In this document: positions 23,565 through 48,697 of the stretch, one piece after another
Layout: each line of letters starts with the position of its first letter
Position numbering within the stretch: position 1 is the stretch's first letter
Origin: Aquisalimonas lutea
GTDB taxonomy: Bacteria > Pseudomonadota > Gammaproteobacteria > Nitrococcales > Aquisalimonadaceae
Assembly: GCF_030409225.1 (NCBI RefSeq)
Contig: NZ_JAUFPK010000001.1
Coordinates: 1,975,566-2,039,565, forward strand
Reading direction: 5' to 3'
DNA: 64,000 nt
Position numbers and translations under genes: made by a program
The notes under the pieces: generated by a model
Databases searched by the model: none
Told to the model about the DNA's origin: nothing
The model's input: the letters and a program-made list of their open reading frames with translations, nothing else

Positions 23565-23975
23565 ATGCTCACCACTGAGACAATCCAGCGCATCGTCACC
23601 CCGGTGCTCCGGGGGTATCCGGATGTCTCCGCCGCGTTCCTGTTCGGCTCGCACGCCGCGGGCACGCCCACCGGGAGCAGTGACGTCGACATCGCTCTCG
23701 TGGGGCCCAGGGACCGGCTGGGCGAGCGGAAGCTCGATATCCTCGCGGATCTGGCGCGCGCGGGGCTGGACAATGTCGATCTGGTGTTGCTCGACGGTGC
23801 CGATCCGGCGCTGCGCTTCGAGGCCGTACGCCCCAACTGCTTGGTGTATACAACACCGGAGTTCGACCGCGGCAGCTACTACTCCCTGGCTCTGCGGGAG
23901 TATTTCGACTTCGAGCCCTACCTGCAGATCCAGAGAGAGGCGTTACAGCGGAGGTTGCGCGGTGGTCCGGCCTGA
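23565..23975 (+). CDS. MntA-like antitoxin nucleotidyltransferase (pair 1)
   Basis: Minimal nucleotidyltransferase of 136 residues. The signature AAFLFGSHAAGTPTGSSDVD supplies the GS...DxD active site that adds AMP from ATP. In the family MntA inactivates its toxin HepT by AMPylating a tyrosine. The ATG at 23565 places the motif about 25 residues in, as usual; the longer frame from 23475 looks non-coding. It overlaps the HepT gene by 14 bases, so translation is coupled. A second, clearly different pair lies at 25329-26131. Confidence 0.87.
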   Translation: MLTTETIQRIVTPVLRGYPDVSAAFLFGSHAAGTPTGSSDVDIALVGPRDRLGERKLDILADLARAGLDNVDLVLLDGADPALRFEAVRPNCLVYTTPEFDRGSYYSLALREYFDFEPYLQIQREALQRRLRGGPA

Positions 23976-24375
23976 AGTCATCCGCCGCCGGCTGGAGCGG
24001 TTGGCCGAGTATATCGCCATTCTGGAACGCCTGGCAGCGTACTCCGAGGATACCTTTCTGGCCGATCCGGAGCGCTATGGCAGCGCCGAGCGGTTCCTGC
24101 AGCTCGCCCTTGAGAGCGTGCTGGACATGGGGAGCCACGTGATCGCGGACGAGCAGCTCGGTACGGTCAATCAGAGCCGCGACATCCCTCGCGTTTTCCG
24201 TGAGCAGGGCTACATCGACGCGGACATGGAAAGCCGCTGGCTGCGCATGATCGGGTTCCGCAACATCCTGGTACACGCTTACCTGGATATCGACCGCCAG
24301 CAGGTCCACCGCTTCCTCACCCGCGACCTGGATGATTTCCGCCAGCTCCAGCGCCTGTTCGCAGCGTTCCTGTAA
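23962..24375 (+). CDS. HepT-like toxin (pair 1)
   Basis: All-helical HEPN-domain RNase toxin of 137 residues starting at a GTG (23962) with GGAGG ten bases upstream. The catalytic and AMPylation motif R-x4-H-x-Y is present as RNILVHAY near residue 107. LESVLDMGSHVIADEQLG is the usual dimer helix. The toxin is expected to be silenced by the upstream MntA-like enzyme. The gene is directly followed by a BtuF-like protein and then a second HepT system, whose toxin shares the RNILVH motif but little else. Confidence 0.87.
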   Translation: MVRPEVIRRRLERLAEYIAILERLAAYSEDTFLADPERYGSAERFLQLALESVLDMGSHVIADEQLGTVNQSRDIPRVFREQGYIDADMESRWLRMIGFRNILVHAYLDIDRQQVHRFLTRDLDDFRQLQRLFAAFL

Positions 24376-24384
24376 GTACCGGGG

Positions 24385-25206
24385 GTGGTATTGACGACCC
24401 GAACCGGCTACCACCGCATCGTCTGCCTCACCGAGGAGACCACCGAGACCCTCTACCGCCTCGGCCGCGAGGACCGCATCGTTGGCATCTCCGGGTTTAC
24501 CGTGCGTCCGCCGCAGGCGCGCAGGGACAAGCCGAAGGTCTCCGCGTTTACCTCGGCGAAGATCGACCGCATCCTGGCGCTGGAGCCCGACCTGGTGCTG
24601 GGCTTCTCCGACATGCAGGCCGACATCGCCGCCGCGCTCATCCGCGCCGGGGTGGAGGTGCACGTGTTCAACCAGCGCACGGTGGCCGGCATCCTCGCCA
24701 TGATCCGGCGCCTCGGCCGCATGGTGGATGCCGCCGAGGCGGCCGATGCCCTGGCCGGCGAGCTGGAGGCGCACCTCGCCCGCGTGCGCGCCGCCGGCGA
24801 GGCACTGCCGCACCACCCGCGCGTGTACTTCCAGGAGTGGGACGACCCGCAGATCTGCGGCATCGGCTGGGTGAGCGAGCTCATCGCCGTCGCCGGCGGC
24901 ATCGACTGCTTCGCCGACTGCGCCGGCGCCGCGGACGCCCGCAGCCGCATCATCGCCGACGCGGACGAGGTCGCCGCCCGGGCGCCTGAGGTCATCATTG
25001 GCTCCTGGTGCGGCAAGAAGTTCCGGCCCGAGTGGCTGCGCGCCATCGACGCCTGGGCGGATGTCCCGGCCATCCGCAACAACGCCCTGTTCGAGATCAA
25101 GTCCTCCCTCATCCTCCAGCCCGGCCCGGCGGCCCTCACCGACGGCGTCGACGCCCTCCACGCCATCCTGCGCACAATCCAGCCACCCACCCAACCTCCG
25201 CCGTAA
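24385..25206 (+). CDS. BtuF-like substrate-binding protein without signal peptide
   Basis: Helical-backbone periplasmic-binding fold (cobalamin/siderophore group) of 273 residues. It shows RIVCLTEETTETLYRLG, DRIVGISGFTVRPP, DRILALEPDLVLGFSDMQAD and GVEVHVFNQRTVAGILAMIRRLGRMV, the first lobe of BtuF. The second lobe contains WVSELIAVAGGIDCFAD and RAPEVIIGSWCGKKF. The N-terminus has no hydrophobic signal sequence from either the GTG at 24385 or the TTG at 24391, so it is probably cytoplasmic. It may bind a corrinoid or metal complex; no ABC transporter genes adjoin it. It is wedged between two toxin-antitoxin pairs. Confidence 0.8.
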   Translation: MVLTTRTGYHRIVCLTEETTETLYRLGREDRIVGISGFTVRPPQARRDKPKVSAFTSAKIDRILALEPDLVLGFSDMQADIAAALIRAGVEVHVFNQRTVAGILAMIRRLGRMVDAAEAADALAGELEAHLARVRAAGEALPHHPRVYFQEWDDPQICGIGWVSELIAVAGGIDCFADCAGAADARSRIIADADEVAARAPEVIIGSWCGKKFRPEWLRAIDAWADVPAIRNNALFEIKSSLILQPGPAALTDGVDALHAILRTIQPPTQPPP

Positions 25207-25209
25207 CGC

Positions 25210-25243
25210 CGTAGGAGTGACTTCAGTCGCGACCGTTGCAGAG
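25210..25243. repeat. Single REP-like palindrome
   Basis: GTAGGAGTGACTTCAGTCGC is a variant arm set (GTGACTTCAGTCGC) of the dispersed element, followed by the common tail GACCGTTGCAGAG. It lies between the BtuF-like gene and the second MntA-like gene. Confidence 0.8.
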
Positions 25244-25328
25244 CAATTGTTCGGGAGAAAGGCGATGTGACGGTGCTTCAGCGCCGGTCATGCTACCCTG
25301 GCCGCAGACCCACGCGGCAGAAACCGCC

Positions 25329-25727
25329 ATGGACAACGACGCCCTGACAACCCGCATTCAAGCCATCCTGGAAGCGCACGCCGACGAAATCGCCTGCGCC
25401 TACCTGTTCGGTAGCCGCGCCACGGGCACAGAGCGGCCGGACAGCGACATCGATCTGGCCGTGCTGTTCCGCGACGCCCAGCCGCGCCGGCTGATGGGCC
25501 CGGCCGTCGCGTTGCGAGGCGAGCTCGAAGAGCACACGGGGTACGAGGTCGAGCTCATCGACCTGGAAGCCGCGCCGGTGGACCTCGTTCACCGGGTTCT
25601 GCGGGAAGGCCGGCTCCTGCTGGACCCCGACCCCGGGCGCCGTATCGCCTTCGAGGTGGATGCGCGCAACCGGTACTTTGACCTGCTGCCGTATATTCAG
25701 GCGTATCGAAGGGCAGGGAGCGCATGA
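25329..25727 (+). CDS. MntA-like antitoxin nucleotidyltransferase (pair 2)
   Basis: Minimal nucleotidyltransferase of 132 residues with CAYLFGSRATGTERPDSDID near residues 23-42, the GS...DxD active site. It differs substantially from the enzyme at 23565, so it is not a recent duplicate. The ATG at 25329 is chosen because the domain begins immediately after it. It overlaps the next gene by four bases (ATGA), a hallmark of translational coupling in these modules. It is expected to AMPylate and neutralise the following HepT-like toxin. Confidence 0.87.
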   Translation: MDNDALTTRIQAILEAHADEIACAYLFGSRATGTERPDSDIDLAVLFRDAQPRRLMGPAVALRGELEEHTGYEVELIDLEAAPVDLVHRVLREGRLLLDPDPGRRIAFEVDARNRYFDLLPYIQAYRRAGSA

Positions 25728-26131
25728 CCGACGCCGATCTTCTGGAAAAAAAACTCGCGTTCATCGAGACATGTGTCCGCGAACTGCGCGAGCTTGCCCG
25801 GCCCGAGCGCATCGGTGATGACGTGCGCGAGACGCGCTTCGTCGAGCACACCCTTCAGCTCGCCATCCAGTCCGCCCTGGACGCGGCGTCACACGTGGTG
25901 TCGATGCGCAGACTGGGCGAGCCCGAGACCAATCGGGCGCTCTTCGAAAGCCTGCGCCGGGCGGGTCTCGTGGAACCGCCCCTGGCGGAGTCGCTCTATG
26001 CCATGGCCGGTTTCCGCAACATCCTGGTCCACGGATACCAGGAGGTGGATGTCGCCGTGGTCCGCGATATCGTCGACAATCACCTGGATGACCTGCTCGC
26101 CTTCGCCCGCAGCATACGCGCGGCAACGTAA
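25724..26131 (+). CDS. HepT-like toxin (pair 2)
   Basis: HEPN toxin of 135 residues with the R-x4-H-x-Y motif RNILVHGY near residue 103, preceded by LQLAIQSALDAASHVVSMRRLG. In the family the motif is both the RNase site and the tyrosine target of the MntA partner. It is coupled to the antitoxin gene by an ATGA overlap. The gene is followed by REP-like palindromes and then the polysaccharide locus regulator. Confidence 0.87.
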   Translation: MTDADLLEKKLAFIETCVRELRELARPERIGDDVRETRFVEHTLQLAIQSALDAASHVVSMRRLGEPETNRALFESLRRAGLVEPPLAESLYAMAGFRNILVHGYQEVDVAVVRDIVDNHLDDLLAFARSIRAAT

Positions 26132-26956: not shown

Positions 26957-27922
26957 ATGGAAGAAGACCACAACACCCCGCGCAGCGGCCGCTATCCAGC
27001 CCGCGGCGATGCCGACTTCCCCGCCGAGCACCACACACACGACGACGAAATCAGCCTCTACGATCTGTGGGATGTCCTCATGCGGCGCCTGCCGGTGCTG
27101 ATCGGTGTCGCGTTGCTGGTCATCGTCGTGGGAGCGGTATACGCCTTCAGCCAGCCGATTGAATACACCTATCGCTCCCAGATCGAGCTGGCCCAGCTGC
27201 CCGAGTACCACAACCCGGCAAGTGACGCTGGTGGTGGCAACGGCGAGGCGGTCCCTGTTGTGCCTGTTGATTCCGTCCAGCGGGAGCTGGAGCAGGTGCT
27301 GATCCCTGAAGTACGCGGCCGCCTTGCCGGCGACAACGATGCGATGTCGCGCCTCCAGGTCAGCGTGTCCGGCACTAACCCGACGGTCTCATTGACCTCG
27401 ACGGCCGGGCCCGATGCGTCAGATTCCGTCACGCAACTCCATCAGGCGATCATCGAGGCCTTTCAAGCACAGCAGGAGGCGGCGCTGGAGAGCGCCGTAC
27501 AGACCGGCGCTCGCCCGTTCGAGGAGAGAGCGGAGTTACTCGGCGAACAGATAACCGAGCTTGAGGCAGAAACCGAGCGTCTGGCCCAGGCATCGGCCCG
27601 GGGCGATGGCGTGCGCGCCATGGTGTTTGCGCAGCAGCTCGGCGACGTGCGCCGCGAGCTACGCCAGGCACGGCTGCAACGGCTGGACGCCCAGAGCATG
27701 CTGGAAACGATCTGGGAGAGCGCGGAGCCCATGGACGCCCTCGGGGTTGCCAGGAAATCAAGCTCGCCCGTTGGCCCAAGCCGAAGCCTCATCATCGCGC
27801 TATCGGTTGTCCTCGCCGGCATGCTCGGCCTGTTCGCGGCCTTCTTCTGGGAGTTCGTCAGTAACGCTCGGCGCTACCGCCGAACCCAAAGTGAGCAGCA
27901 ATTAGGATCGCGGCCACCGTAG
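26957..27922 (+). CDS. Wzz/chain-length determinant-like membrane protein
   Basis: Polysaccharide co-polymerase of 321 residues in the inner membrane. After a polar N-terminus the signature DDEISLYDLWDVLMRRLPVL leads into the first membrane helix (IGVALLVIVVGAVYAFSQP, about residues 47-65). A periplasmic domain with a long coiled coil (about residues 165-255) follows, then a second helix SLIIALSVVLAGMLGLFAAFFWEFV near the C-terminus. It sets chain length of the exported glycan together with Wzy. It is the first structural gene after the ops element. No tyrosine-kinase domain is attached. Confidence 0.85.
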   Translation: MEEDHNTPRSGRYPARGDADFPAEHHTHDDEISLYDLWDVLMRRLPVLIGVALLVIVVGAVYAFSQPIEYTYRSQIELAQLPEYHNPASDAGGGNGEAVPVVPVDSVQRELEQVLIPEVRGRLAGDNDAMSRLQVSVSGTNPTVSLTSTAGPDASDSVTQLHQAIIEAFQAQQEAALESAVQTGARPFEERAELLGEQITELEAETERLAQASARGDGVRAMVFAQQLGDVRRELRQARLQRLDAQSMLETIWESAEPMDALGVARKSSSPVGPSRSLIIALSVVLAGMLGLFAAFFWEFVSNARRYRRTQSEQQLGSRPP

Positions 27923-32635: not shown

Positions 32636-33415
32636 ATGAGCGGTACTGTTAACCCCTACCGGAACGCCGCGATGCTGATCGCCCTCCGCCTGGCGTGGGA
32701 CCTGGATCCCCGGTCTTGGCAGGCTCGGCGCCGGTTGAAGAGGCTTCGGGACACCCACCGCGGGGAGAAGGCTGTAATCCTGTGCAACGGCCCATCCCTG
32801 CTGAAGGTGGACTTCGACCGCCTCAGCGCTAGCCGTGTGTATACCTTCGGCCTTAACAAAATCAATATGCTCTACGACAAGACCGATCACCGGCCCAGCT
32901 CCATCGTCTCCGTCAACCGGTTGGTGATCGAGCAGAATCTGGCGTTCTTTAACGAGACCGACACCCCGTTGTTTATGGACTCCATGGCGGTCCGGCAGGG
33001 CCTGAAGACCCGTGGCAACGTCTATTACCTGAACTCCACCCCCCTCCACGGCACGTTCGCCCGCGACGTTTCCATGAGCCTGTTCCAGGGCCACACCGTG
33101 ACCTACGTGGCGCTTCAGGTAGCCTTCCATTTGGGTTTTCAGCAGGTGGCGCTGGTGGGCTGCGATCACAACTTCGCCACCAAGGGGCCGGCCAACAAGA
33201 CCGTGACCGGCGGCGAGTCGGATCCTAACCACTTCGACCCGAACTATTTCGCCGGGGTGAAGTGGCAGCTGCCGGATCTGGTCGAGAGCGAGATGGCCTA
33301 CTTCAAGGCGCTACAGGTCTACGAAGAGGCGGGCCGCAGCCTCTATAACTGCACCGAGGGCGGCAAGCTGGAGATCCTGCCTAGGAAGCCGCTTCCCGAC
33401 TTTCTCGATGAGTGA
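32636..33415 (+). CDS. MptE/CST-like protein (DUF115 type), candidate sugar-acid transferase
   Basis: A 259-residue protein with EKAVILCNGPSLLKVDFDRL near residues 40-60. This GNGPSL-type loop is shared by MptE-like (DUF115) proteins and GT42 sialyltransferases such as CST. Later TVTYVALQVAFHLGFQQVALVGCDHNF resembles the CMP-binding half. The start at 32636 has AAAGGAG upstream. It is the sixth gene of the sugar-acid module, just before the flippase, with which it overlaps by eight bases. Because a NeuA-like gene lies three genes upstream, a CMP-sugar-acid transferase is plausible, but this is inference. Confidence 0.65.
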   Translation: MSGTVNPYRNAAMLIALRLAWDLDPRSWQARRRLKRLRDTHRGEKAVILCNGPSLLKVDFDRLSASRVYTFGLNKINMLYDKTDHRPSSIVSVNRLVIEQNLAFFNETDTPLFMDSMAVRQGLKTRGNVYYLNSTPLHGTFARDVSMSLFQGHTVTYVALQVAFHLGFQQVALVGCDHNFATKGPANKTVTGGESDPNHFDPNYFAGVKWQLPDLVESEMAYFKALQVYEEAGRSLYNCTEGGKLEILPRKPLPDFLDE

Positions 33416-34706
33416 GGCGCGGACACTTGGTGTAAACGGGCTCATCTATTTGGCAGCCACCCTGGTTGCCAGGGGGGTGCCGTTCATCCTAATGGTGGTT
33501 TACGCCAATGTCTTGCCGCCCGACGAGTACGGATTGGTTGGCACGATAATGGTCACGGTCGGAATCGTCTCAGTTTATGTAGGGCTGCGCCCCGATATCT
33601 ATGTGATCAAGCACTATCATCAGGATGAAGGCGCCTTCGGCGATCACATCGCGGCGCTGTATCAGATCCTGGCGACTACCTTTTTAGTCATAATTGCTTT
33701 GCTGGTCCTCGGTCACGCCCTATTGCCGGTGCCTCGCGAAGTAGCTCTGGGCTTCGCCGCGGCAGTCGCCGTTCTGTCCTTGGGACGCGGGCTCCAGCTG
33801 ATTCCCGACAGCCTGCTGATGTCGAGCGGTCGCTCCCTCCAGTACGCTATCAGCCAGCTGGTACTGGCCGTGGGCTATCTGGCGGTGTCGTTGCCTTTGG
33901 TTTATTGGCTGCGCTCCTGGGAGGCGATGGCGGTGGGCAACTTCGTCGTCTGGTGTGCGGGCGCTGGGGTTTCCACGGCTCTAGCCGCCGGGCTTTTCGG
34001 CTTCCACGGACTGCGTTCACTGGCGCGCCTTCGTCCGCAACGGCTACGCGAAGCCTTCGGTTTCTTGTTTCCGCTTACCTTCCATGTAATCGGATTCGCC
34101 TTGGTGAACGCCATCGACCGGTTCATCCTCATGGATATGCAGGGCGTGGCGGCCGTTGGCGCGTATACAGCGGCCTACACGCTGGGGCTGGTGCTGGGTG
34201 TGGCGCATGACGCGCTGTTGAAGGCTTGGAATCCCTATTTCTTCCGGCGGGTCACCTCCGAAGGGGTCAGCCTGCGGCGAATGCTGGCGCCACAGTCGCT
34301 GTATGCACTGGCCTCGGTGGTTTCGGCGTTGGTTTACGGGTACGCGGCCAGCCACGCTTTCGAATTCATGTATCCGGCCGCCTACGCCAATGCGGCAGCC
34401 GTGGTTCCCGTGGTTTGCCTGGCCTATGGACTGGAAGGGGTTCGCAAGATCTTCTGCGGGCAGCTCTACGTGTTCTCCCGCATGAAGACCCTGGCGTCTA
34501 TGTCCTTGCTGGCGGCGCTTGCCAACATAGTGCTCAACGTGCTGTGGATCCCGCAGTTCGGCATCATGGGGGCCGCCTACGCCACGCTGGCCGCCTTCGC
34601 CTTCATGGCAACGGCCGTTATATTCTTCTCTATTTATCTTTCCCATGCCGCGGCGCGGTTGCCGGACCCTTCCCAGGCGTCCGGAGCCCCAGCGGGCGAT
34701 GCATGA
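33408..34706 (+). CDS. wzx: Oligosaccharide flippase (Wzx-like)
   Basis: Inner-membrane polysaccharide unit transporter of 432 residues with about 12-14 hydrophobic helices, in the MATE/MVF fold. The N-terminus VNGLIYLAATLVARGVPFIL and FGFLFPLTFHVIGFALVNAIDRFIL with VGAYTAAYTLGLVLGVAHDALLKAWNPYF fit the family. It moves undecaprenyl-linked repeat units to the periplasm, where the polymerases encoded further on would act. It overlaps the preceding gene by eight bases. The repeat unit carried is unknown. Confidence 0.88.
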   Translation: MSEARTLGVNGLIYLAATLVARGVPFILMVVYANVLPPDEYGLVGTIMVTVGIVSVYVGLRPDIYVIKHYHQDEGAFGDHIAALYQILATTFLVIIALLVLGHALLPVPREVALGFAAAVAVLSLGRGLQLIPDSLLMSSGRSLQYAISQLVLAVGYLAVSLPLVYWLRSWEAMAVGNFVVWCAGAGVSTALAAGLFGFHGLRSLARLRPQRLREAFGFLFPLTFHVIGFALVNAIDRFILMDMQGVAAVGAYTAAYTLGLVLGVAHDALLKAWNPYFFRRVTSEGVSLRRMLAPQSLYALASVVSALVYGYAASHAFEFMYPAAYANAAAVVPVVCLAYGLEGVRKIFCGQLYVFSRMKTLASMSLLAALANIVLNVLWIPQFGIMGAAYATLAAFAFMATAVIFFSIYLSHAAARLPDPSQASGAPAGDA

Positions 34707-35685: not shown

Positions 35686-36123
35686 GCGGCAGCGAGCCGG
35701 GTACGCGGATAGTCATTAACACGGTCAATTTCACTCGACGTTCACCGGCAGCGGTAGATAAACCGAAATGGCGCAATACTATGGTCCGGCGGACTCGAAG
35801 TGTGCGTGGCAATTATGCCGCCGTGCTATCCGAGCTTTCTAGATGCAGGCCAGGTTAGTCGGCAAGCGCTATCGCCGCGGACGTTGCGTAGCCGCTTGGG
35901 TTGGCTGTGGTCCGATGTAGATTCGGCGTAATTCTTCGACGCTTACCGGCCGCCCCATGCCTGGAGAGATAGCCCCAGGCGCACGATCGACTGTTCCATT
36001 GGCTGATGCTCAGGCTGCCGAAAGAGACCTCGGGTAGGTGCCTCAGCGCATCAGACTGGAGGCCATAACTGAGAACGCATGGAATGCTATGCACGGAAAT
36101 GTTTTAGAAGGCAGCGATACAGC
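35686..36123. other. Gene-free spacer before gmd
   Basis: 438 bases with lower GC than the flanking genes and no convincing coding frame on either strand. No repeats, hairpin with T-tract or transposase fragment that I can name. It probably represents a recombination joint between the sugar-acid module and the GDP-fucose genes. Confidence 0.5.
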
Positions 36124-37254
36124 ATGAAAAAGGCACTTGTCACGGGCATCACCGGCCAGGACGGCTCCTACCTCGCCGAATTCCTGCTGGAAAAGGGCTA
36201 CGAGGTCCACGGCATTAAGCGCCGCGCTTCCTCGTTCAATACTCAGCGGGTAGACCATATTTACCAGGATCCGCATGCGGAGCGCCAACGCTTCATCCTC
36301 CACTACGGTGACCTCACCGATAGCTCCAACCTGACTCGGATCTTGCAGGAGGTCCAGCCCGACGAAGTTTACAACCTCGCCGCTCAGAGCCATGTCGCGG
36401 TAAGCTTTGAATCGCCGGAGTACACGGCCGATGTTGATGCTCTGGGGACATTACGCATCTTGGAGGCGATCCGCCTGCTCGGCATGGAGAAGAAGGTGCG
36501 CTACTACCAAGCTAGCACTTCGGAACTGTATGGTTTGGTACAGGAAACACCGCAGAGCGAAACGACACCTTTCTATCCCCGAAGCCCCTATGCCGTGGCC
36601 AAGCTCTATTCTTACTGGATGACGGTCAACTACCGTGAGGCGTATGGGATGTATGCCTGCAACGGCATCCTCTTCAACCACGAGTCACCCCGGAGGGGCG
36701 AGACCTTCGTCACCCGGAAGATTACCCGTGGTCTTGCCAATATCGCGCAGGGACTGGAATCGTGCCTCTACCTCGGCAACATGAATGCCCTTCGCGACTG
36801 GGGTCACGCCCGCGATTACGTGCGCATGCAGTGGATGATGCTGCAACAAGACTACCCCGAGGACTTTGTGATTGCGACGGGGCGCCAAGTCTCGGTGCGT
36901 GACTTTCTAGCCATGAGCGCCAAGGCGTTGGGCATCGGTCTGCGCTTCGAAGGCGAGGGGGTAGAGGAGATTGCCGTGGTGGATTCGGTACGAGATAGGG
37001 CGTCGGCGCCGGCTGTAGAGGTGGCTGACGTGATCGCATGTGTCGATTCCCGCTACTTCCGCCCCACTGAGGTTGAAACGCTCCTGGGTGACCCGACAAA
37101 GGCACGAGAGAAACTCGGATGGGTACCGGAGACTACGCTGGAAGAGATGTGTGCCGAAATGGTGGCGGAAGATCTCAAGGATGCACGTCGCAACGCCTTA
37201 CTCAAGAAGCACGGCTTGGAATTGCCCATTGCATTGGAGAACCAGCATGGCTGA
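36124..37254 (+). CDS. gmd: GDP-mannose 4,6-dehydratase
   Basis: Short-chain dehydratase of 376 residues converting GDP-D-mannose to GDP-4-keto-6-deoxymannose, precursor of GDP-L-fucose, D-rhamnose and perosamine. It has [20 protein letters not shown] at the N-terminus, [18 protein letters not shown] and the active-site Thr/Glu segment [10 protein letters not shown], with [15 protein letters not shown] for the catalytic Tyr and Lys. The start at 36124 places the Rossmann loop at residue 8; a frame opening at 36079 adds 15 unrelated residues. The fcl gene follows with an eight-base overlap, pointing to GDP-L-fucose as product. Confidence 0.97.
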
Positions 37255-38212
37255 GCAGGAACCGAGGATCTTCGTGGCCGGCCATCGCGGCATGGTAGGT
37301 CGTGCGATCGTGCGCAGGCTGGAGGCGCTGGGCTATACCGATATCATCACCCGTACACGCGACGAGTTGGACTTGCTGGATCAACAGGCCGTGAACGCCT
37401 TTTTTCAGAGCGAGCGGATTGATCAAGTCTATCTCGCCGCCGCCAAGGTAGGGGGAATCCGCGCCAACAGTACCTACCCGGCCCACTTTGTCCATGACAA
37501 CCTGGTTATCGAGACCAACGTTATCCACGCCGCCTACAAAGCCGGGGTGGAGAAGCTGCTCTTCCTCGGATCGTCGTGCATCTACCCTCGTGACGCGGCC
37601 CAGCCCATGGCTGAGGAGGCATTGCTGACCGGACCGCTGGAGCCGACTAACGAGCCCTACGCAATCGCCAAGATCGCCGGGATCAAGCTGTGCGAGAGCT
37701 ACAACCGCCAGCACGGGACTGATTACCGCAGTGTCATGCCGACCAACCTCTATGGGCCGTATGACAACTTTCATCCGGAAAACAGTCACGTGATCCCAGG
37801 ACTGATCCGGCGCTTCCATGAAGCGGTGCGGAATGGAGACGAGGAGGTGGTGATCTGGGGCAGTGGTCAGCCTCGCCGGGAGTTTCTGCATGTAGACGAC
37901 ATGGCTGCCGCCTCGGTGTATGTGATGACCTTGTCCAAGGAAGCTTGGCAGGCACAGGTCGAGCCCATGTGTTCGCATATCAACGTGGGGACGGGAGAGG
38001 ATTGCACCATCCAAGAGCTCGCGGAGACCATCCAATGGGTGGTGGGTCACGAAGGGCGACTTGTTTTCGACACCAGTCGGCCGGATGGAGCGCCGAGGAA
38101 ATTGCTAGATGTGGCACGCCTTAAGCGCGTGGGATGGCATCCGAGTGTGAAACTAATCGATGGCCTAACGGATGTGTATGCTTGGTTTGTCAAGAACACT
38201 ATGGTGCATTGA
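37247..38212 (+). CDS. fcl: GDP-L-fucose synthase
   Basis: Bifunctional 3,5-epimerase/4-reductase of 321 residues that turns GDP-4-keto-6-deoxymannose into GDP-L-fucose. The N-terminus [20 protein letters not shown], then [20 protein letters not shown] and [20 protein letters not shown] with the catalytic Ser and Cys, and [16 protein letters not shown] with Tyr and Lys are all typical. It overlaps gmd by eight bases. Together the two supply fucose for the glycan assembled by the neighbouring glycosyltransferases. Confidence 0.97.
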
Positions 38213-39542: not shown

Positions 39543-39688
39543 CAGTCACGCTCCTTGAATTGTTGAATGAAGTCGCGCATTGCGCCACAACTGATGCCTA
39601 TTACGCGCCTTCGCGGTTTAATTTAATTATCGGTATTTTGCGAAAAGACTCTTTTATTCGGTATTTTCCGGAGATATCTTGCATTTAT

Positions 39689-40957
39689 ATGGGTAATAGG
39701 CTCCCTTTGGTTTTTCGATCTATCTTCCTGTTGTTTTTTATCGTAATTGGGTGGGATGGAGTGGTTCTAGGCAACCCAGTAATCCGCCCACCCGTAGTGA
39801 TTGGCGCCTTATTGATTCCGTCTTTATTTGTTTTGGCGGTAACTCATTCCGGGAGGAGAATAGTCGGTATTTTCCGATTGGAAGATATAGCTCTTCTCAT
39901 TTTTCTTGTGGCTATAGTGGCGAGCTGGTTCTTTAATCCAGTCTCTACGGACCCCGCTTACGTAGCAGCCTATACGTTTGTCTTTGTTGGATTCTACTTT
40001 GCACCAAAATTCTTTTTAGACGGCAAATTTGGTGGTGGGGCTGTACTGCGGTGCAATCTGATTGGTGTAGCCTTAGTAGTTCTGTACGTTTATACAGAGG
40101 TAGCTTTAGCTGCAACTAGTGATATAGAGCTCGGGCAATGGGTTGGCAAGCTGAAAGAGGAAGACGCGTTAGCAACCGTGCTCGGAGTCAGGTGGCCTAG
40201 AGCGTACGGGCTCTCTGAGGAGCCACTCAACTTGGCGCTCTACCTAGCTTGCGCTGGCGCTTTGGCAGTCTGGTTCGCTTGGAGATGCTCCCGCAAACTG
40301 GGGGTAATCGTACTGTGTGCAACCATAGTAGCTTGGGCGCTAGCATTTTCTACCGCAGGGCTAGTAGCGGCGGTGATTGGGTTTGCCGCGGTTATAAGTA
40401 AGTGGTTTATCCGGAAAGCAAGGCAACGGTACGGGCTTTTCCGAAAAAGCACTGTAGTGACGGCGTTAGTCGGGGGAGTTGGTTTGGCGATGGGGATTGC
40501 GTTAATTGCGGCTGGACCAATGGCAGGAGTCGAATTTTCGGTTATTGATAAGCTGGAAAGATACGGGAGTGGGCCTCGTTTTAAGAATGCATTGGAAACG
40601 TTAGAGAGAATTGGCCCAACTGATACGCCTTTTTTTGGGGTGGGTCTTGGAAGTGGGCTTTCCGATATAGGTGGAAGTGCTATTAATTGGTATCTAACCT
40701 TGTTATATCAAGGAGGGTTAATACCTTTAACATTTATTCTTCTTTTTTTGTTTACGATAGTACTGCGGCATTTTAGGGGTGCGTCATCATTAAGTGATGT
40801 TGGTCTCTTTGTCTCTTTTTACGCTGGGGTTCATTATTTGGCTACCGCAACGTTTTTTCAGCCGGCTGCTTGGGTAGTTTTGGCCGTGATTGGCGCGTTG
40901 GAGTCTTCTGGGAACGGGCAGGTAGCGGTCACAAGACGTAGCGATGACGGGAAGTAG
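39689..40957 (+). CDS. Wzy-like O-antigen polymerase/ligase-family membrane protein
   Basis: Polytopic inner-membrane protein of 422 residues with about 11 hydrophobic helices. A large loop carries VRWPRAYGLSEEPLNLALYL, the usual Arg and Ser/Glu-containing periplasmic region of O-antigen ligase-fold proteins, and a second loop has GPRFKNALETLERIG. Likely polymerises repeat units together with the Wzz-like protein. The gene is strongly AT-rich relative to the genome, the clearest sign of foreign origin in the window. I prefer the ATG at 39689; the frame is open back to 39560 but that part has no membrane-protein character. Confidence 0.78.
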   Translation: MGNRLPLVFRSIFLLFFIVIGWDGVVLGNPVIRPPVVIGALLIPSLFVLAVTHSGRRIVGIFRLEDIALLIFLVAIVASWFFNPVSTDPAYVAAYTFVFVGFYFAPKFFLDGKFGGGAVLRCNLIGVALVVLYVYTEVALAATSDIELGQWVGKLKEEDALATVLGVRWPRAYGLSEEPLNLALYLACAGALAVWFAWRCSRKLGVIVLCATIVAWALAFSTAGLVAAVIGFAAVISKWFIRKARQRYGLFRKSTVVTALVGGVGLAMGIALIAAGPMAGVEFSVIDKLERYGSGPRFKNALETLERIGPTDTPFFGVGLGSGLSDIGGSAINWYLTLLYQGGLIPLTFILLFLFTIVLRHFRGASSLSDVGLFVSFYAGVHYLATATFFQPAAWVVLAVIGALESSGNGQVAVTRRSDDGK

Positions 40958-43193: not shown

Positions 43194-44366
43194 GTGGGTA
43201 GCAGGCGGGTTCTTATGGTCGTCAATGATCCGGGATTCTTTCTGTCGCACCGACTTCCGGTCGCGCTGGCGGCGCAGGATGCCGGTTGCGAAGTGCATGT
43301 GGCCACGGGTCCTGGCGATGACGATGCCGGGCGTATCGCCGAGGCAGGGCTTACCCACCACGAAATCCCGCTCGGGCGCAGCAGCGTGAACCCGCTGAAG
43401 GAATTGCGCTCGTTGTTCGCCCTTGTTGGCCTTTTCCGGCGTCTGCGCCCGGCCGTTGTGCACTTGGTGACGATTAAGCCGGTTCTTTACGGGGGGCTAG
43501 CGGCGCGGCTCACACACGTTCCGGGTATGGTTGCCGCCATTAGCGGGATGGGTTTTCTGTTCGCTGAGGGACGGCGCGGCCCCGGCCGGTTACTTGCGGA
43601 GCAGCTTTATCGGATGGCGTTGGCGCATCCGAATGGCCGCGTGATCGTGCAAAACGAGGGGGATCGTGCAGCATTGCAGGCGATGGGCGCGCTCCCACCC
43701 GGGCGGGATTTGCTTATCCCCGGTTCGGGTGTGGACCTCGATATTTTCGCGCCTACATCCTTCCCGCACGGAGTACCAATTGTGGTTATGCCGGCGCGGA
43801 TGCTTTGGGAGAAAGGTGTTGGCGAGTTCGCGGAAGCAGCCAGAATGCTGGGTAAGAAGGGAGTGCAGGCACGGTTCGCTCTAGTAGGTCCGCCGGATCC
43901 GCAGAATCCGAGCGCCGTACCATTGGGAATGTTGGAACAGTGGCGTGCTAACGGTCCTGTGGAGTGGTGGGGGCAGCAGGATGATATGCCGTCGGTTCTG
44001 GCGTCGGCTAGCTTGGTCGTATTGCCCTCGTTCTATCGGGAAGGCGTACCAAAGGCGCTCTTAGAAGCGGCAGCCGCCGGCCGCGCCATTGTTACCACGG
44101 ATACCGTAGGGTGTCGAGTTGCGGTGGACCCGGGCGTGACCGGTGAGTTGGTGCCCGCACGCAATTCACACGCCTTGGCCGATACCATGGAACGATTGCT
44201 GGCTAACCCGGAGCGCTTGGCCCAGATGGGAGCATGTGGGCGGGCGAAGGCGGAGGCGGAGTTCGGTGTTGCACGGGTTGTGGAGGCGCATCTCCGTTTA
44301 TATCGGGATTTGCTTGGTGATGATGCGCCCTCTCAAATTTCCGATGCCCGCGACCGGACTAGGTGA
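43194..44366 (+). CDS. Glycosyltransferase family 4 (PglA/WbtE-like)
   Basis: GT-B glycosyltransferase of 390 residues. The N-terminus VLMVVNDPGFFLSHRLPVAL with VVHLVTIKPVLYGGLAARL and GMVAAISGMGFLF is characteristic of the PglA group, which usually adds the second sugar to an undecaprenyl-linked acceptor. The donor lobe shows LIPGSGVDLDIF, PARMLWEKGVGEFAEAA and VLPSFYREGVPKALLEAAA. The GTG at 43194 directly precedes the first strand. It lies upstream of the WecA-like fusion gene (49-base gap), consistent with acting right after that enzyme in repeat-unit assembly. Confidence 0.9.
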   Translation: MGSRRVLMVVNDPGFFLSHRLPVALAAQDAGCEVHVATGPGDDDAGRIAEAGLTHHEIPLGRSSVNPLKELRSLFALVGLFRRLRPAVVHLVTIKPVLYGGLAARLTHVPGMVAAISGMGFLFAEGRRGPGRLLAEQLYRMALAHPNGRVIVQNEGDRAALQAMGALPPGRDLLIPGSGVDLDIFAPTSFPHGVPIVVMPARMLWEKGVGEFAEAARMLGKKGVQARFALVGPPDPQNPSAVPLGMLEQWRANGPVEWWGQQDDMPSVLASASLVVLPSFYREGVPKALLEAAAAGRAIVTTDTVGCRVAVDPGVTGELVPARNSHALADTMERLLANPERLAQMGACGRAKAEAEFGVARVVEAHLRLYRDLLGDDAPSQISDARDRTR

Positions 44367-44414: not shown

Positions 44415-46937
44415 ATGACCATTTCACTTATTCCGAATCTGATCGCGGCCCTGTTGCTGACCACGGGGTTGATCTTCGCGCTGCGGGGTCCGGCGCGACG
44501 GCTGAACCTGGTTGATCACCCGGGAGGGCGGAAGCGTCACGCCGCGCCGACGCCGCTGGTGGGCGGCATTGCCGTTTTCGGCGGCTTCCTGCTGGCCGTG
44601 CTGACCGTCGACATGGCGCTGCGTCCTTATGCGGCGCTGTTTGCCGGGATGGGACTTCTGCTCGCGTGCGGCGTGGTCGATGACCTGCGCGATATGCGCA
44701 GCACGACGAAGCTTGCGGTGCAGATCATCGCGGCGACGCTGGTGGTGGCCTGGGGCGGAATGGTGCTCACCGAGGTGGGGGATTTCGCGCCGGCGGGTAC
44801 GCTCAGCCTCGGGGCCTGGGCGATGCCGCTGACTCTGTTCGGTATTGTCGGCCTGGTCAATGCGGTCAACATGTTGGACGGCCTGGACGGGCTGGCCGGC
44901 GGGGCGTCCTTCGTCATGCTGTTGTGGCTGGCCGTTGCCGCCCACCTGAATGGTCTCGCCGATGCGCCGGCAATCATCGCCGTACTCGCCGCTGCCCTGG
45001 CGGGATTTCTCTTCTTCAACGCGCGCCATCCCCTGCGGGGGAAGGCGGCGGTGTTCCTCGGGGACGCCGGCAGCATGCTCCTCGGGCTCGCCATCGCCTG
45101 GTTCAGTGTGGAGGTCGCCCGGGCCGGCGTAGGAGCGCCGGTTTCGCCAGTGGCCGTCGGCTGGATCATTGCCCTGCCGGTGATGGACACAGTGAGCCTG
45201 ATGTTGCGGCGGCTGGTGAAAGGGCGCAGCCCGTTCGTGGCGGACCGTGAGCATCTCCATCATCTGTTCATGCGCGCGGGCTACTCCCCGGGCCAGGCGA
45301 GCTGGATGCTCGTGGCCATTGCCTTCAGCTTCGGGGGCGTCGGCGTCATGCTGTCGGTGTATGGCGTGCCGGATCTGGTTCTGGCTTCCGGGCTTGCCGT
45401 TGCCATCGGCCTGCATTTCGTGTTCATCCGCTATGCCTGGCGGACTATGAAGGCCCTGCGCCGGCTCGGGCAGCGGCGTTCCAGCGCGCCCGAGGCGGCG
45501 AGTACGCCGTTGCAACCCGGACATACCCTGGCCTCCCCGGTGACGGGCTGGCGGCGTGGGCTGGCGCTGGCGGGGCTGTACATGATGGTGGCGGCCATCC
45601 CGCTGTCCACGGCCTTGACCAACATCGGCCTCGGGCTGGTGCTTGCGGCAACCATTGCGAGTGCACCCGCGTTCCTGCGGGATATGGTGCGGCTGCCGGT
45701 GTTCTGGCTGGCGGTGATTCTCACCGTCTACGTGGGACTGGTCAGCCTGGTCGGCGAGATCCGGTTTCCCGCGCTGGCGGAGGAGTCGGTCCCCCACTGG
45801 CGGCACCTGCTGCGTGTGACGGTGCTGCTGAGCCTTCCCCTGGCCTGGTGGCTGGCGGGGGCACGCTTCCACTGGCCGTGGCTGTTCTGGGCGCTGATCG
45901 CGGCGAGCGCCGCCGCGTTCGCCGTCGATGCGCACTGGCCGGAACTCATGCGGGGTGAGTTGGGGGACTCCACCCACTATGGATCGCCGGATGACTATGC
46001 TTCCACTGCGGCCTGCGTTCTCGTGCTTCTCTTCGCGATTGCCGTTGCGGCTATCGCCCGGTTCGGCCGGGGGTGGCGCCCGGCCTTTACGTTGATCATC
46101 TCCCTGGCCGCAGCGGTGCCCGTGCTGCTTCTCCTGGTGGTCTCGAACTACACCACGGCCTGGATCGGCGCCGGCGTCGGCATTCTCATCGTCGGCGTAT
46201 CAGCCATTCTCTACGGCGCGAATCGCCAGCAGTGGGCGGGCCTGATCGGCGGCGCCCTGCTCGTCGCCGTGCTGGGCGCCGGCTCCTGGTTTCTGATCCA
46301 CGAGAGCGTTCCCACCCGGGATGCGTTCCAGGAGCCCCTGCAGGCTGCCGCGCTGTATGTTGGCGGCGAGCACGAGCTGGCCCGCGAGCGCCACCCGGCC
46401 ACCGCGACCCGATTGACCCTGTGGGGTGAAGCGTTGCGGAGCGCAGGGGGAAGGCCTTTCACCGGGTGGGGGGTCACGTCGCCGCGGCGGGATCTCTCGT
46501 TGGAGGATATCGGCCGGCAGGGTACCTTCCAGAACTTCTATCTCAGCCTGCTCGTCGGTTACGGCTTGCTCGGCCTCGGCCTGTTCATTGTTCTCGCGTA
46601 CGTGCTGATCCGCCGGGTAGTGCGGGCGACGCAGCGGAAGCTGCTCCCCGTGGGCATCGCCGTCGCTCTCTACGGCGTCATGGGCACCATGGCGACGATG
46701 CTCCTGCTCTCGACCCAGATCAACCACACCGCGAGCCGGACACTGATCATCCTGTTGTTCGCATTTCTGGGCGCGGTCGGGGTCATGCGTCGCTGGGAGC
46801 GGGACCGGCTCAGTGTGTGCCGGGCGCGGATGACGGTTGTCGACGAAGCACCCCCTGCGCTGATCAGAGGAGGGAGTCCCGCTGTGGCGTCCCGGAGCGA
46901 TGACGTCAGTCGAGAGGACCGTGTTGTTGGTGAATAG
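44415..46937 (+). CDS. Fusion of WecA/MraY-type phosphoglycosyltransferase and O-antigen polymerase/ligase domain
   Basis: An 840-residue inner-membrane protein with two halves. Residues about 1-345 are a polyprenyl-phosphate sugar-1-phosphate transferase: RKRHAAPTPLVGGIAVFGGF, CGVVDDLRDM (metal DD), NMLDGLDGLAGG, VFLGDAGSMLLGLA and DREHLHHLFMRAG. After a short linker (RRSSAPEAASTPLQ) residues about 375-800 form a Wzy/WaaL-type membrane domain with many helices and HYGSPDDYASTAACV, SNYTTAWIGAGVGI and GRPFTGWGVTSP. No stop or internal start breaks the frame. It would both start lipid-linked unit synthesis and polymerise or ligate the glycan. High GC returns here after the AT-rich segment. Confidence 0.88.
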   Translation: MTISLIPNLIAALLLTTGLIFALRGPARRLNLVDHPGGRKRHAAPTPLVGGIAVFGGFLLAVLTVDMALRPYAALFAGMGLLLACGVVDDLRDMRSTTKLAVQIIAATLVVAWGGMVLTEVGDFAPAGTLSLGAWAMPLTLFGIVGLVNAVNMLDGLDGLAGGASFVMLLWLAVAAHLNGLADAPAIIAVLAAALAGFLFFNARHPLRGKAAVFLGDAGSMLLGLAIAWFSVEVARAGVGAPVSPVAVGWIIALPVMDTVSLMLRRLVKGRSPFVADREHLHHLFMRAGYSPGQASWMLVAIAFSFGGVGVMLSVYGVPDLVLASGLAVAIGLHFVFIRYAWRTMKALRRLGQRRSSAPEAASTPLQPGHTLASPVTGWRRGLALAGLYMMVAAIPLSTALTNIGLGLVLAATIASAPAFLRDMVRLPVFWLAVILTVYVGLVSLVGEIRFPALAEESVPHWRHLLRVTVLLSLPLAWWLAGARFHWPWLFWALIAASAAAFAVDAHWPELMRGELGDSTHYGSPDDYASTAACVLVLLFAIAVAAIARFGRGWRPAFTLIISLAAAVPVLLLLVVSNYTTAWIGAGVGILIVGVSAILYGANRQQWAGLIGGALLVAVLGAGSWFLIHESVPTRDAFQEPLQAAALYVGGEHELARERHPATATRLTLWGEALRSAGGRPFTGWGVTSPRRDLSLEDIGRQGTFQNFYLSLLVGYGLLGLGLFIVLAYVLIRRVVRATQRKLLPVGIAVALYGVMGTMATMLLLSTQINHTASRTLIILLFAFLGAVGVMRRWERDRLSVCRARMTVVDEAPPALIRGGSPAVASRSDDVSREDRVVGE

Positions 46938-46982: not shown

Positions 46983-47381
46983 TCATGCAGCACACCAGTC
47001 GGTAACCTGCAGCTCCGCTATTCGCGTGAACTCCGCCGTATTGTGCGTGACGAGAATGGCGCTGTACGCCAGGGCGGTGCCGGCAATCAAGGTGTCGAGC
47101 GGCCCGATGGGGTTGCCCTCTTTCTCCAGGCGAGCCCGGATGCTCGCTGCGTGCGTCGCCGCGTCACGGTCGAAAGGGAGAAGGGTCGTAGTTGCCAGCA
47201 ATTCGTTGAACTGGCGGCGCCGTCTCTCGGGAGCCCTGGATTTGGCAATGCCCGTCTCGATCTCGTAGGCGACAATCGCCGGGATGCCGATCAGGGATGG
47301 CGCAGTGGCGAGCATTCGGGCCGGGACGTCGCCCACCCCCTTGAAGAAGTAGACAAGGGTGTTCGTGTCCAGGGCATACAT
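46983..47381 (-). CDS. VapC-type PIN-domain toxin (module 1)
   Basis: PIN endonuclease of 132 residues that would cleave tRNA or rRNA. The acidic metal-binding residues are in MYALDTNTLVYFFKG, IPAIVAYEIETGIAK, GPLDTLIAGTALAY and LVTHNTAEF. The ATG at 47381 shares bases with the antitoxin stop codon (TAATG), so translation is coupled. The sequence is of the FitB/VapC subtype. It is convergent with the polysaccharide locus, whose last gene ends 46 bases away. Confidence 0.88.
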   Translation of the reverse strand: MYALDTNTLVYFFKGVGDVPARMLATAPSLIGIPAIVAYEIETGIAKSRAPERRRRQFNELLATTTLLPFDRDAATHAASIRARLEKEGNPIGPLDTLIAGTALAYSAILVTHNTAEFTRIAELQVTDWCAA

Positions 47382-47626
47382 TACAGCGGTTCCCGGGATG
47401 TATCCGGCGTCTGCGTTGCCCGCAGTTGTTCGGCGTCGGGAAAATCGTCCCAGCTCCCCGCGAGCTCGCGTACCGACTCGGGCCATTCGGTACGGGTCTT
47501 CTCCTCGATGAGAGCCGCAACCCAGCGACTGACCGGCACGCCGGATTCCTTGGCGGCTCGCCTGAGCCGGCGTTCCCGCTCGTCGTCGAGATAGATGGTG
47601 ACCTGACCCACGGTTGCCGCCTCCAA
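47381..47626 (-). CDS. Ribbon-helix-helix antitoxin (module 1)
   Basis: Antitoxin of 81 residues. The first strand VGQVTIYLDDERERRL and helix SGVPVSRWVAALIEE form a CopG/RHH DNA-binding domain. The acidic C-terminus (AGSWDDFPDAEQL) is the likely toxin-neutralising tail. It immediately precedes and overlaps the PIN toxin gene. An AT-rich perfect palindrome eight bases upstream of its ATG is the probable autoregulatory operator. Confidence 0.85.
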   Translation of the reverse strand: MEAATVGQVTIYLDDERERRLRRAAKESGVPVSRWVAALIEEKTRTEWPESVRELAGSWDDFPDAEQLRATQTPDTSREPL

Positions 47627-48047: not shown

Positions 48048-48290
48048 GTGAACACCGAGACCACCAAGCTGACCATTCGCTTGCCGCGGCGAGACGTCGA
48101 GTTCGCCAAGGCGTATGCCAAAGCCCACGGACTGACGGTTACCGAGGTCATTGACCGATACCTACGACGCATGCGGGCGCTGGAAGAGAACGCACCGTCA
48201 CCGGAGCTGGAATTCATCACGGGCCTGGTCCCCGCGGAGGTGGATGCCGAGGCAGCACATCGCGATTACCTGGACCGCAAGCATCGATGA
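48048..48290 (+). CDS. Antitoxin of VapBC module 2
   Basis: Antitoxin of 80 residues starting at a GTG (48048) after GGAGA. TKLTIRLPRRDVEFAKAYAK and LTVTEVIDRYLRRMRAL form a ribbon-helix-helix-like DNA-binding domain of the DUF6364 type. The C-terminus ELEFITGLVPAEVDAEAAH is the likely toxin contact. It overlaps the toxin gene in an ATGA. The pair is flanked by the deleted and the intact yebG copies, which face it on the opposite strand. Confidence 0.85.
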   Translation: MNTETTKLTIRLPRRDVEFAKAYAKAHGLTVTEVIDRYLRRMRALEENAPSPELEFITGLVPAEVDAEAAHRDYLDRKHR

Positions 48291-48697
48291 TACTGATCGA
48301 CACCAACGTGGCTCTGGACGTCATCCAGAAACGCGAACCTCATTACCGGGCGTCGGCCGCCGTGATTGACCGAGTCATCCGTAAACGTACGCAAGCGGCG
48401 CTTCCTGCCCATGCAATCACCACGATCCACTTCCTCGTGCGCCGGTACCAGAATCAGGAAATGGCATCCCAGGTCGTCGACTGGATATTGGCGCGATTCG
48501 AGGTTGCACCCGTGGGTCGCACGGAGCTGATACGTGCGCAATCGTTTGCCTGGGCGGATTTTGAGGACGCGGTTGTCGCCGCCGCTGCGGACGCGCTGGG
48601 ATGTGAGGTAATCGTCACACGAAATGTCCGCGATTTCTCGGGCTCACCGGTGCCCGCATTCACGCCCGAAGAGTACCTGCTCGATACATCCGGATGA
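48287..48697 (+). CDS. PIN-domain toxin of VapBC module 2
   Basis: PIN nuclease of 136 residues: MILIDTNVALDVIQKREPHY opens with the first catalytic Asp. PAHAITTIHFLVRRYQN follows, then AWADFEDAVVAAAADALGCE with further acidic residues and VIVTRNVRDFSGS. It is coupled to the antitoxin by an ATGA overlap. This subtype (often paired with DUF6364 antitoxins) is common on genomic islands of proteobacteria. It is unrelated in detail to the toxin at 46983. Confidence 0.87.
   Translation: MILIDTNVALDVIQKREPHYRASAAVIDRVIRKRTQAALPAHAITTIHFLVRRYQNQEMASQVVDWILARFEVAPVGRTELIRAQSFAWADFEDAVVAAAADALGCEVIVTRNVRDFSGSPVPAFTPEEYLLDTSG

Follow-up and report, generated by a model that had tools for sequence, protein, structure and literature searches.

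A conserved protein of Aquisalimonas lutea and its relatives joins a WecA-type initiating transferase to what is most likely a pseudo-ligase domain

A single gene of Aquisalimonas lutea joins a WecA-type initiator of surface-polysaccharide synthesis to a WaaL-derived membrane domain. The fusion is real and conserved, and its product is most likely a WecA-type initiator with a pseudo-ligase domain. On balance, we lean towards the reading that this domain has been kept for a non-catalytic job, likely the coupling of initiation to the periplasmic stages of assembly; the evidence would fit a sensor or docking part built into the protein better than a second enzyme. The gene was found in a stretch of 64,000 nucleotides (hereafter the window), to which all coordinates below refer.

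The frame at 44415-46937 (+) begins with ATG and runs through 840 codons without interruption. A Pfam scan of the window protein placed Glycos_transf_4 at residues 74-233 (E 1.2e-36, 126.6 bits against a cut-off of 27) and Wzy_C at residues 566-725 (E 5.5e-12, 46.2 bits against a cut-off of 31.7). The preliminary description had reported an unbroken frame joining both domains, which is confirmed by the open frame and by both domains exceeding their curated cut-offs. A hydropathy scan gave 11 hydrophobic segments, a positively charged stretch at residues 339-382 and then 12 further segments, with an 85-residue loop (residues 629-713) between segments 9 and 10 of the second set. This order would be compatible with a WecA part that ends in the cytoplasm and a WaaL-type fold that begins there, and the fold family and hydropathy support the earlier suggestion that the two halves would work at opposite faces of the membrane. 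Structure prediction from four sequences (the window protein, L006, L007 and L008) reached a mean pLDDT of 45. The parts of the gene are as follows.

44415..46937, + strand: fusion gene, WecA-type initiator plus WaaL-derived membrane domain, 840 aa (open frame, Pfam, same fusion in relatives)
44415..45464, + strand: WecA-type half, aa 1-350 (Pfam, motifs, hydropathy, alignment with E. coli WecA)
45465..45560, + strand: linker, about aa 351-382, positively charged, of varying length among relatives (hydropathy and comparison of relatives)
45561..46787, + strand: WaaL/Wzy_C-type half, about aa 383-791, 12 hydrophobic segments (Pfam, profile alignment, hydropathy)
46299..46553, + strand: large loop, aa 629-713, periplasmic by analogy with WaaL (hydropathy; missing from five short fusions)
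46152..46154, + strand: T580, column of E. coli WaaL R215 (alignments)
46410..46412, + strand: R666, column of E. coli WaaL R288, the sole kept residue of the three (alignments)
46530..46532, + strand: Q706, column of E. coli WaaL H338 (alignments)

The motifs named earlier for the WecA-type half are all present, namely VVDDLRD (87-93), NMLDGLDGL (from 152), FLGDAGS (214-220) and REHLHHLF (278-285). E. coli WecA D90, D91, D94, D156 and D159 align with D89, D90, D93, D155 and D158 of the fusion, and D217, H279, H281 and H282 with D217, H280, H282 and H283. We take the acidic motifs and the HxHH of WecA/MraY-type transferases to be catalytic. They are intact at all 14 fusion loci, at 13 by pattern and at the remaining one (L075) with the variants FMGDSG and REHFHH. 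The best NCBIfam match of the fusion, the WecA model TIGR02380, scored 239.9 bits, below its cut-off of 326.05, so UDP-GlcNAc is no more than a possible donor for this half. The own genome (4.2 Mb, 16 contigs) encodes two Glycos_transf_4 proteins, the fusion and MraY; the fusion is thus the only WecA-type initiator found there. It also encodes one initiator of another type (PF02397), far from the fusion gene.

The fusion gene lies at the end of an O-antigen-type locus, in which the following genes were assigned.

26957..27922, + strand: Wzz-type chain-length gene (Pfam Wzz)
33408..34706, + strand: Wzx-type flippase gene (Pfam Polysacc_synt)
36079..38212, + strand: GDP-mannose dehydratase (gmd) and GDP-L-fucose synthase genes (NCBIfam, both over cut-off)
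39560..40957, + strand: AT-rich Wzy-like gene, product P0002 (GC content and profile match)
43194..44366, + strand: GT4-type glycosyltransferase gene, directly upstream of the fusion (Pfam scan)

A separate AT-rich Wzy-like gene had been noted before, and the gene at 39560-40957 indeed has a GC content of about 50%, compared with about 70% for much of the window. It has no Pfam match over cut-off, and its product is a weak match to the profile of free-standing WaaL/Wzy proteins (hhalign probability 86%). This protein has no clear equivalents of WaaL R215 and H338 and aligns at R288. Around the fusion genes of relatives, wzz is adjacent in G028, and nucleotide-sugar genes lie within about 6 kb in G038 and G045; with such neighbours, the protein looks like an ordinary surface-polysaccharide initiator. 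In G016 (L061) and G026 (L065), which represent two genera, the fusion gene is flanked by wzz genes and a NusG/RfaH-like gene. Toxin-like genes are also present in the window. Two PIN-domain genes lie just downstream of the fusion, at 46983-47486 (-, convergent) and 48287-48697 (+), and two HepT-like genes and one nucleotidyltransferase-domain gene, resembling HepT/MNT toxin-antitoxin pairs, lie upstream of the polysaccharide locus at 23623-26131 (+).

Of 54 genomes of the order searched with a profile, 12 carry the fusion, at 13 loci, and 38 have some match at E <= 1e-20. A long form of 770-840 aa occurs in G000, G005, G016, G038, G045, G028, G030 and G026, and a short form of 666-701 aa in G018, G044, G048 and twice in G051. 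The two short forms of G051 (87% complete, 4% contamination), L028 on C97 and L075 on C79, have diverged from each other. The carrier of L006 is an Ectothiorhodospiraceae MAG, whose contig appears to be identical to G005:C122, the two agreeing in length and in identity to the query. In a class sample of 369 genomes including the own one, 30 matched the C-terminal half at E <= 1e-6; the fusions among them were in G000, G016 and G141, the last being the only one outside the order. Within its own order, of which 12 genomes were searched, G141 alone carries the fusion. At E <= 1e-12, a phylum sample (398 genomes, own included) gave two matches: the fusion of the own genome and a partial one in G672. 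At most four candidates were scored per genome in the class and phylum searches, which may miss members, short forms above all. In a plasmid collection searched by tblastn with the whole protein, none of the 54 matching records covered at least 80% of the query, and hence no fusion was detected on plasmids; viral contigs gave one partial WecA match. Initiator and Wzy/WaaL-type domain in one protein, as first described, is an architecture conserved across genera.

This distribution leaves the idea that sequencing or assembly joined two genes barely credible. A point in its favour is that another family of the order, f5, keeps WecA and Wzy_C-type genes apart: seven of its genomes encode related WecA proteins as solo genes, as does G034, and the distance from the solo gene to one of Wzy_C type is about 4 kb in G025 and about 9 kb in G019, both of f5. 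Against this, the unbroken fusion recurs at the 13 loci of the order and in G141, it stands on contigs of 1.9-4.2 Mb in G038, G030, G026 and G018, and all 14 C-terminal halves of the fusions group in one clade (100/100). The frame is likewise unbroken in relatives, which rules out both a sequencing error and split genes. The concern raised at first, that an error hides a stop and a start, fails on 13 further loci with the same fusion; the companion concern, that relatives have two separate genes, is not borne out at these loci and holds in part elsewhere in the order.

Two further architectures were considered. A second kind of WecA with a C-terminal membrane extension of about 190-200 aa occurs in G003, G006, G014 and G001 (L069, L070, L071 and L076), also in the window's own genus, and in six genomes of G141's family (L153-L158), where WecA has about 570 aa. 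It was rejected as a half-way form and is treated as unrelated, since hhalign gave probabilities of 0.4% and 1.5% to the fusion and ligase profiles. L043 (696 aa) had the appearance of a further N-terminal fusion, but its first approximately 265 residues look by eye like a mis-set start.

Whether the C-terminal half could be active was assessed from the residues reported as important in E. coli WaaL, R215, R288 and H338 (extracts of PMC3643930). In an alignment with E. coli WaaL and 20 free-standing relatives, R215 and H338 are each found in none of the nine long fusions, and R288 in all nine. R161, R215, R265, R288 and H338 are invariant in the 20 chosen relatives, and of these five columns the long fusions retain R288 alone. 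All five short fusions have none of these WaaL residues and lack the large loop. The 20 free-standing proteins were hand-picked from profile matches; an earlier alignment had 21 plus P0002, from which L128, apparently with all three residues, and P0002, without R215 and H338, were omitted. A broader set was drawn from PF04932 searches, with 27 rows reduced to 25 by removing the G030 fusion and L030 (misaligned at these columns); five of the 25 overlap with the 20-protein set. There, R215, R288 and H338 are present in 25 of 25 aligned proteins, R161 is Arg in only 20 and R265 in 21. Because R161 and R265 vary in the broader set, the argument rests on R215 and H338.

Profile comparisons place the domain in the same family. 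The C-terminal half aligns with the free-standing ligase-type profile over 407 columns (hhalign 100%), and profile-profile alignment gives the window protein the same equivalences at T580, R666 and Q706. The free-standing profile matches the solved WaaL structure 7TPG, in which equivalents of R215, R265, R288 and H338 are seen and that of R161 not clearly; for the fusion profile, no solved structure matched at E up to 1. The C-terminal domain of the short form is clearly related to that of the long form (hhalign 99.6%). Among ten other fusions, Wzy_C passes its cut-off in three, matches below it in two and is unmatched at E up to 0.1 in five.

The window protein keeps R288 and lacks R215 and H338 of WaaL ligases; compared with Wzy_C-type polymerases, it has the loop Arg, and Gln replaces the essential His. 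On this evidence the case against a WaaL-type ligase is strong for the window protein; the case against a polymerase of any kind is weaker, and for the long forms, the window's among them, a polymerase that works in some unusual way is conceivable. An active ligase is argued against by the loss of R215 and H338 in all nine long fusions. The preliminary description had taken the fused domain for a ligase or a second polymerase, a reading that finds no support, given that same loss and the short forms, from which the region is missing.

We consider it improbable that the C-terminal half retains enzyme activity as a diverged polymerase or ligase that works with other residues. Such an enzyme would be consistent with the window's Wzy_C score over the Pfam cut-off and with the retention of R288 and of the P303/G306 positions in nine of nine long fusions. 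Polymerases vary more than ligases at these residues, and functional Wzy proteins vary at the His, two Klebsiella capsule Wzy types having Asp instead (extracts of PMC3485256); the locus's own Wzy-like protein, too, is without R215 and H338 equivalents. Tolerance of a His-to-Arg change is implied for Pseudomonas aeruginosa WaaL in the accessible part of PMC4815439, and two long fusions have Arg in the His column and one has Lys. Four of the nine also carry an Arg at the second position ahead of the R265 column. However, the nine long fusions read Q, N, K, Q, G, Q, R, R and Q in the His column, with no common new acid or base. A new active site is made less likely by the variety of the His replacements and by the relatives that have no loop, and the short forms cannot be active in this way. 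Further, the Wzy_C polymerase MagA requires its Arg and His (PMC3485256, as excerpted), and Wzy-beta likewise requires both (PMC4815439, as excerpted). A further point against a second enzyme is that another Wzy_C protein over the cut-off is present in 11 of the 12 fusion genomes of the order. The own genome encodes three Wzy_C proteins: the fusion, P0003 and one weakly resembling the exosortase-associated ligase model. P0003 has R215, R288 and H338, and about 8 kb separate its gene from one for MsbA, both within one 19-kb stretch.

In the tree of C-terminal halves, the sisters of the fusion clade are five free-standing ligase-type proteins from the same order (97/93). The genes of three of them (L132, L133 and L134, in three genomes) adjoin undecaprenyl-PP phosphatase (BacA/UppP) and nucleotidyltransferase genes, the phosphatase being assigned by Pfam for L132 and by sequence likeness for L133 and L134. 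In the WecA tree, the fusions and eight solo proteins form a clade (97/98), within which the fusion L006 pairs with one of the solo proteins (86/93), although the data do not reject a grouping of all fusions in one clade (p-AU 0.4). A single fusion event followed by loss or splitting in some lineages is the simplest history. Pairwise dN/dS values of Nei-Gojobori type over 12 pairs were 0.19-0.50 for the WecA half and 0.28-0.76 for the C-terminal half, values that are rough because dS was 0.7-1.6. The C-terminal half is still constrained; since its dN/dS exceeds that of the WecA half, part of this constraint may be just that of a membrane domain.

These data also bear on a second alternative, in which a ligase was fused to WecA, became redundant and decayed, and the C-terminal half is a relic or membrane anchor that stabilises the protein or does nothing specific. 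We hold it to be unlikely, though it accommodates several observations: loss is graded, from long forms without the catalytic residues to short forms without the loop; the C-terminal half outpaces the WecA half in all 12 pairs; and solo WecA relatives work in other genomes of the order. Decay is harder to reconcile with the frame and membrane domain being retained at 14 of 14 fusion loci in 9 genera and with dN/dS below 1 in every pair. In addition, the viability of a solo WecA means that the domain could have been lost.

A domain retained for a non-catalytic job would explain the protein as follows. The WecA-type half, judging from its intact motifs, would transfer a sugar-1-phosphate to undecaprenyl phosphate at the cytoplasmic face. 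The WaaL-derived domain, with 12 predicted membrane segments, would present its large loop on the periplasmic side, by analogy with WaaL, and given the lost residues it most likely no longer catalyses ligation or polymerisation. It could couple initiation to late assembly either by sensing lipid-linked O-units or by docking WecA to Wzx, Wzy, Wzz or WaaL. The loss of the residues is observed in the alignments, and from sequence we infer the role. More specifically, and only tentatively, the pseudo-ligase may be a covalent periplasmic sensor or docking module that, though no longer catalytic, would still contact undecaprenyl-PP-linked O-units or the Wzx/Wzy/Wzz machinery and tune WecA across the membrane, a hard-wired form of the proposed WaaL feedback on initiation. 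Docking without sensing, or a relic, would look identical in sequence.

A feedback-controlled initiator is a possibility raised by the architecture when it is read beside published models. In the available text of PMC4863624, WaaL is proposed to sense periplasmic UndPP-linked material and to signal to the initiating transferase, and externalised lipid II is proposed to inhibit MraY in P. aeruginosa (extracts of PMC10914600); a counter-statement from 2025, in the excerpted text of PMC11813082, describes these pathways as being without feedback control. How cells prevent O-antigen synthesis from trapping the shared lipid carrier is an open question, and an article of 2025 raises the question of how general feedback by lipid-linked intermediates is across the initiating transferases (PMC12826051, in part). 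For the feedback question, an initiator bearing a WaaL-type domain that lacks two key residues offers a clean object in one polypeptide. Should the domain instead turn out to be a relic, the relatives would still document, in graded stages, how a ligase domain decays in place. The accessible text of the openly licensed PMC papers among the matches listed contains no description of a WecA-WaaL/Wzy fusion or of a pseudo-ligase.

Each half has a known counterpart. E. coli K-12 WecA, a GlcNAc-1-phosphate:undecaprenyl-phosphate transferase, resembles the whole N-terminal half, and the compared acidic and HxHH residues align; it ends after 367 aa, whereas the fusion continues into the WaaL-type domain. 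The C-terminal half aligns with the profile of ligases such as WaaL of E. coli and C. metallidurans (7TPG), but without R215 and H338. The polymerases Wzy-beta and MagA share the Pfam domain and the loop Arg with the fusion, in which their essential His is missing.

For the proposed coupling, the WaaL-feedback model of Hong and Reeves involves separate proteins with a hypothetical link between them, and its initiator, WbaP, belongs to another family (PMC4863624, as excerpted). P. aeruginosa MraY belongs to the same superfamily as the fusion's initiator and has a proposed external product-sensing site; sensing takes place at the dimer interface of MraY itself and involves no fused domain (extracts of PMC10914600). 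In layout, Brucella WadA is comparable to the fusion in joining a cytoplasmic transferase to a WaaL-type membrane domain, and the available text of PMC9938171 presents it as the first bifunctional O-antigen ligase to its authors' knowledge. As described there, the ligase half of WadA is active and its partner adds the last core sugar, whereas in the fusion the partner is an initiator and the ligase half is without the catalytic His. The sequence argues against an active C-terminal half, which a WadA-like initiator and ligase with both halves active would need. What sets the fusion apart from WadA is the partner, an initiator, and the ligase half, from which the key residues are gone.
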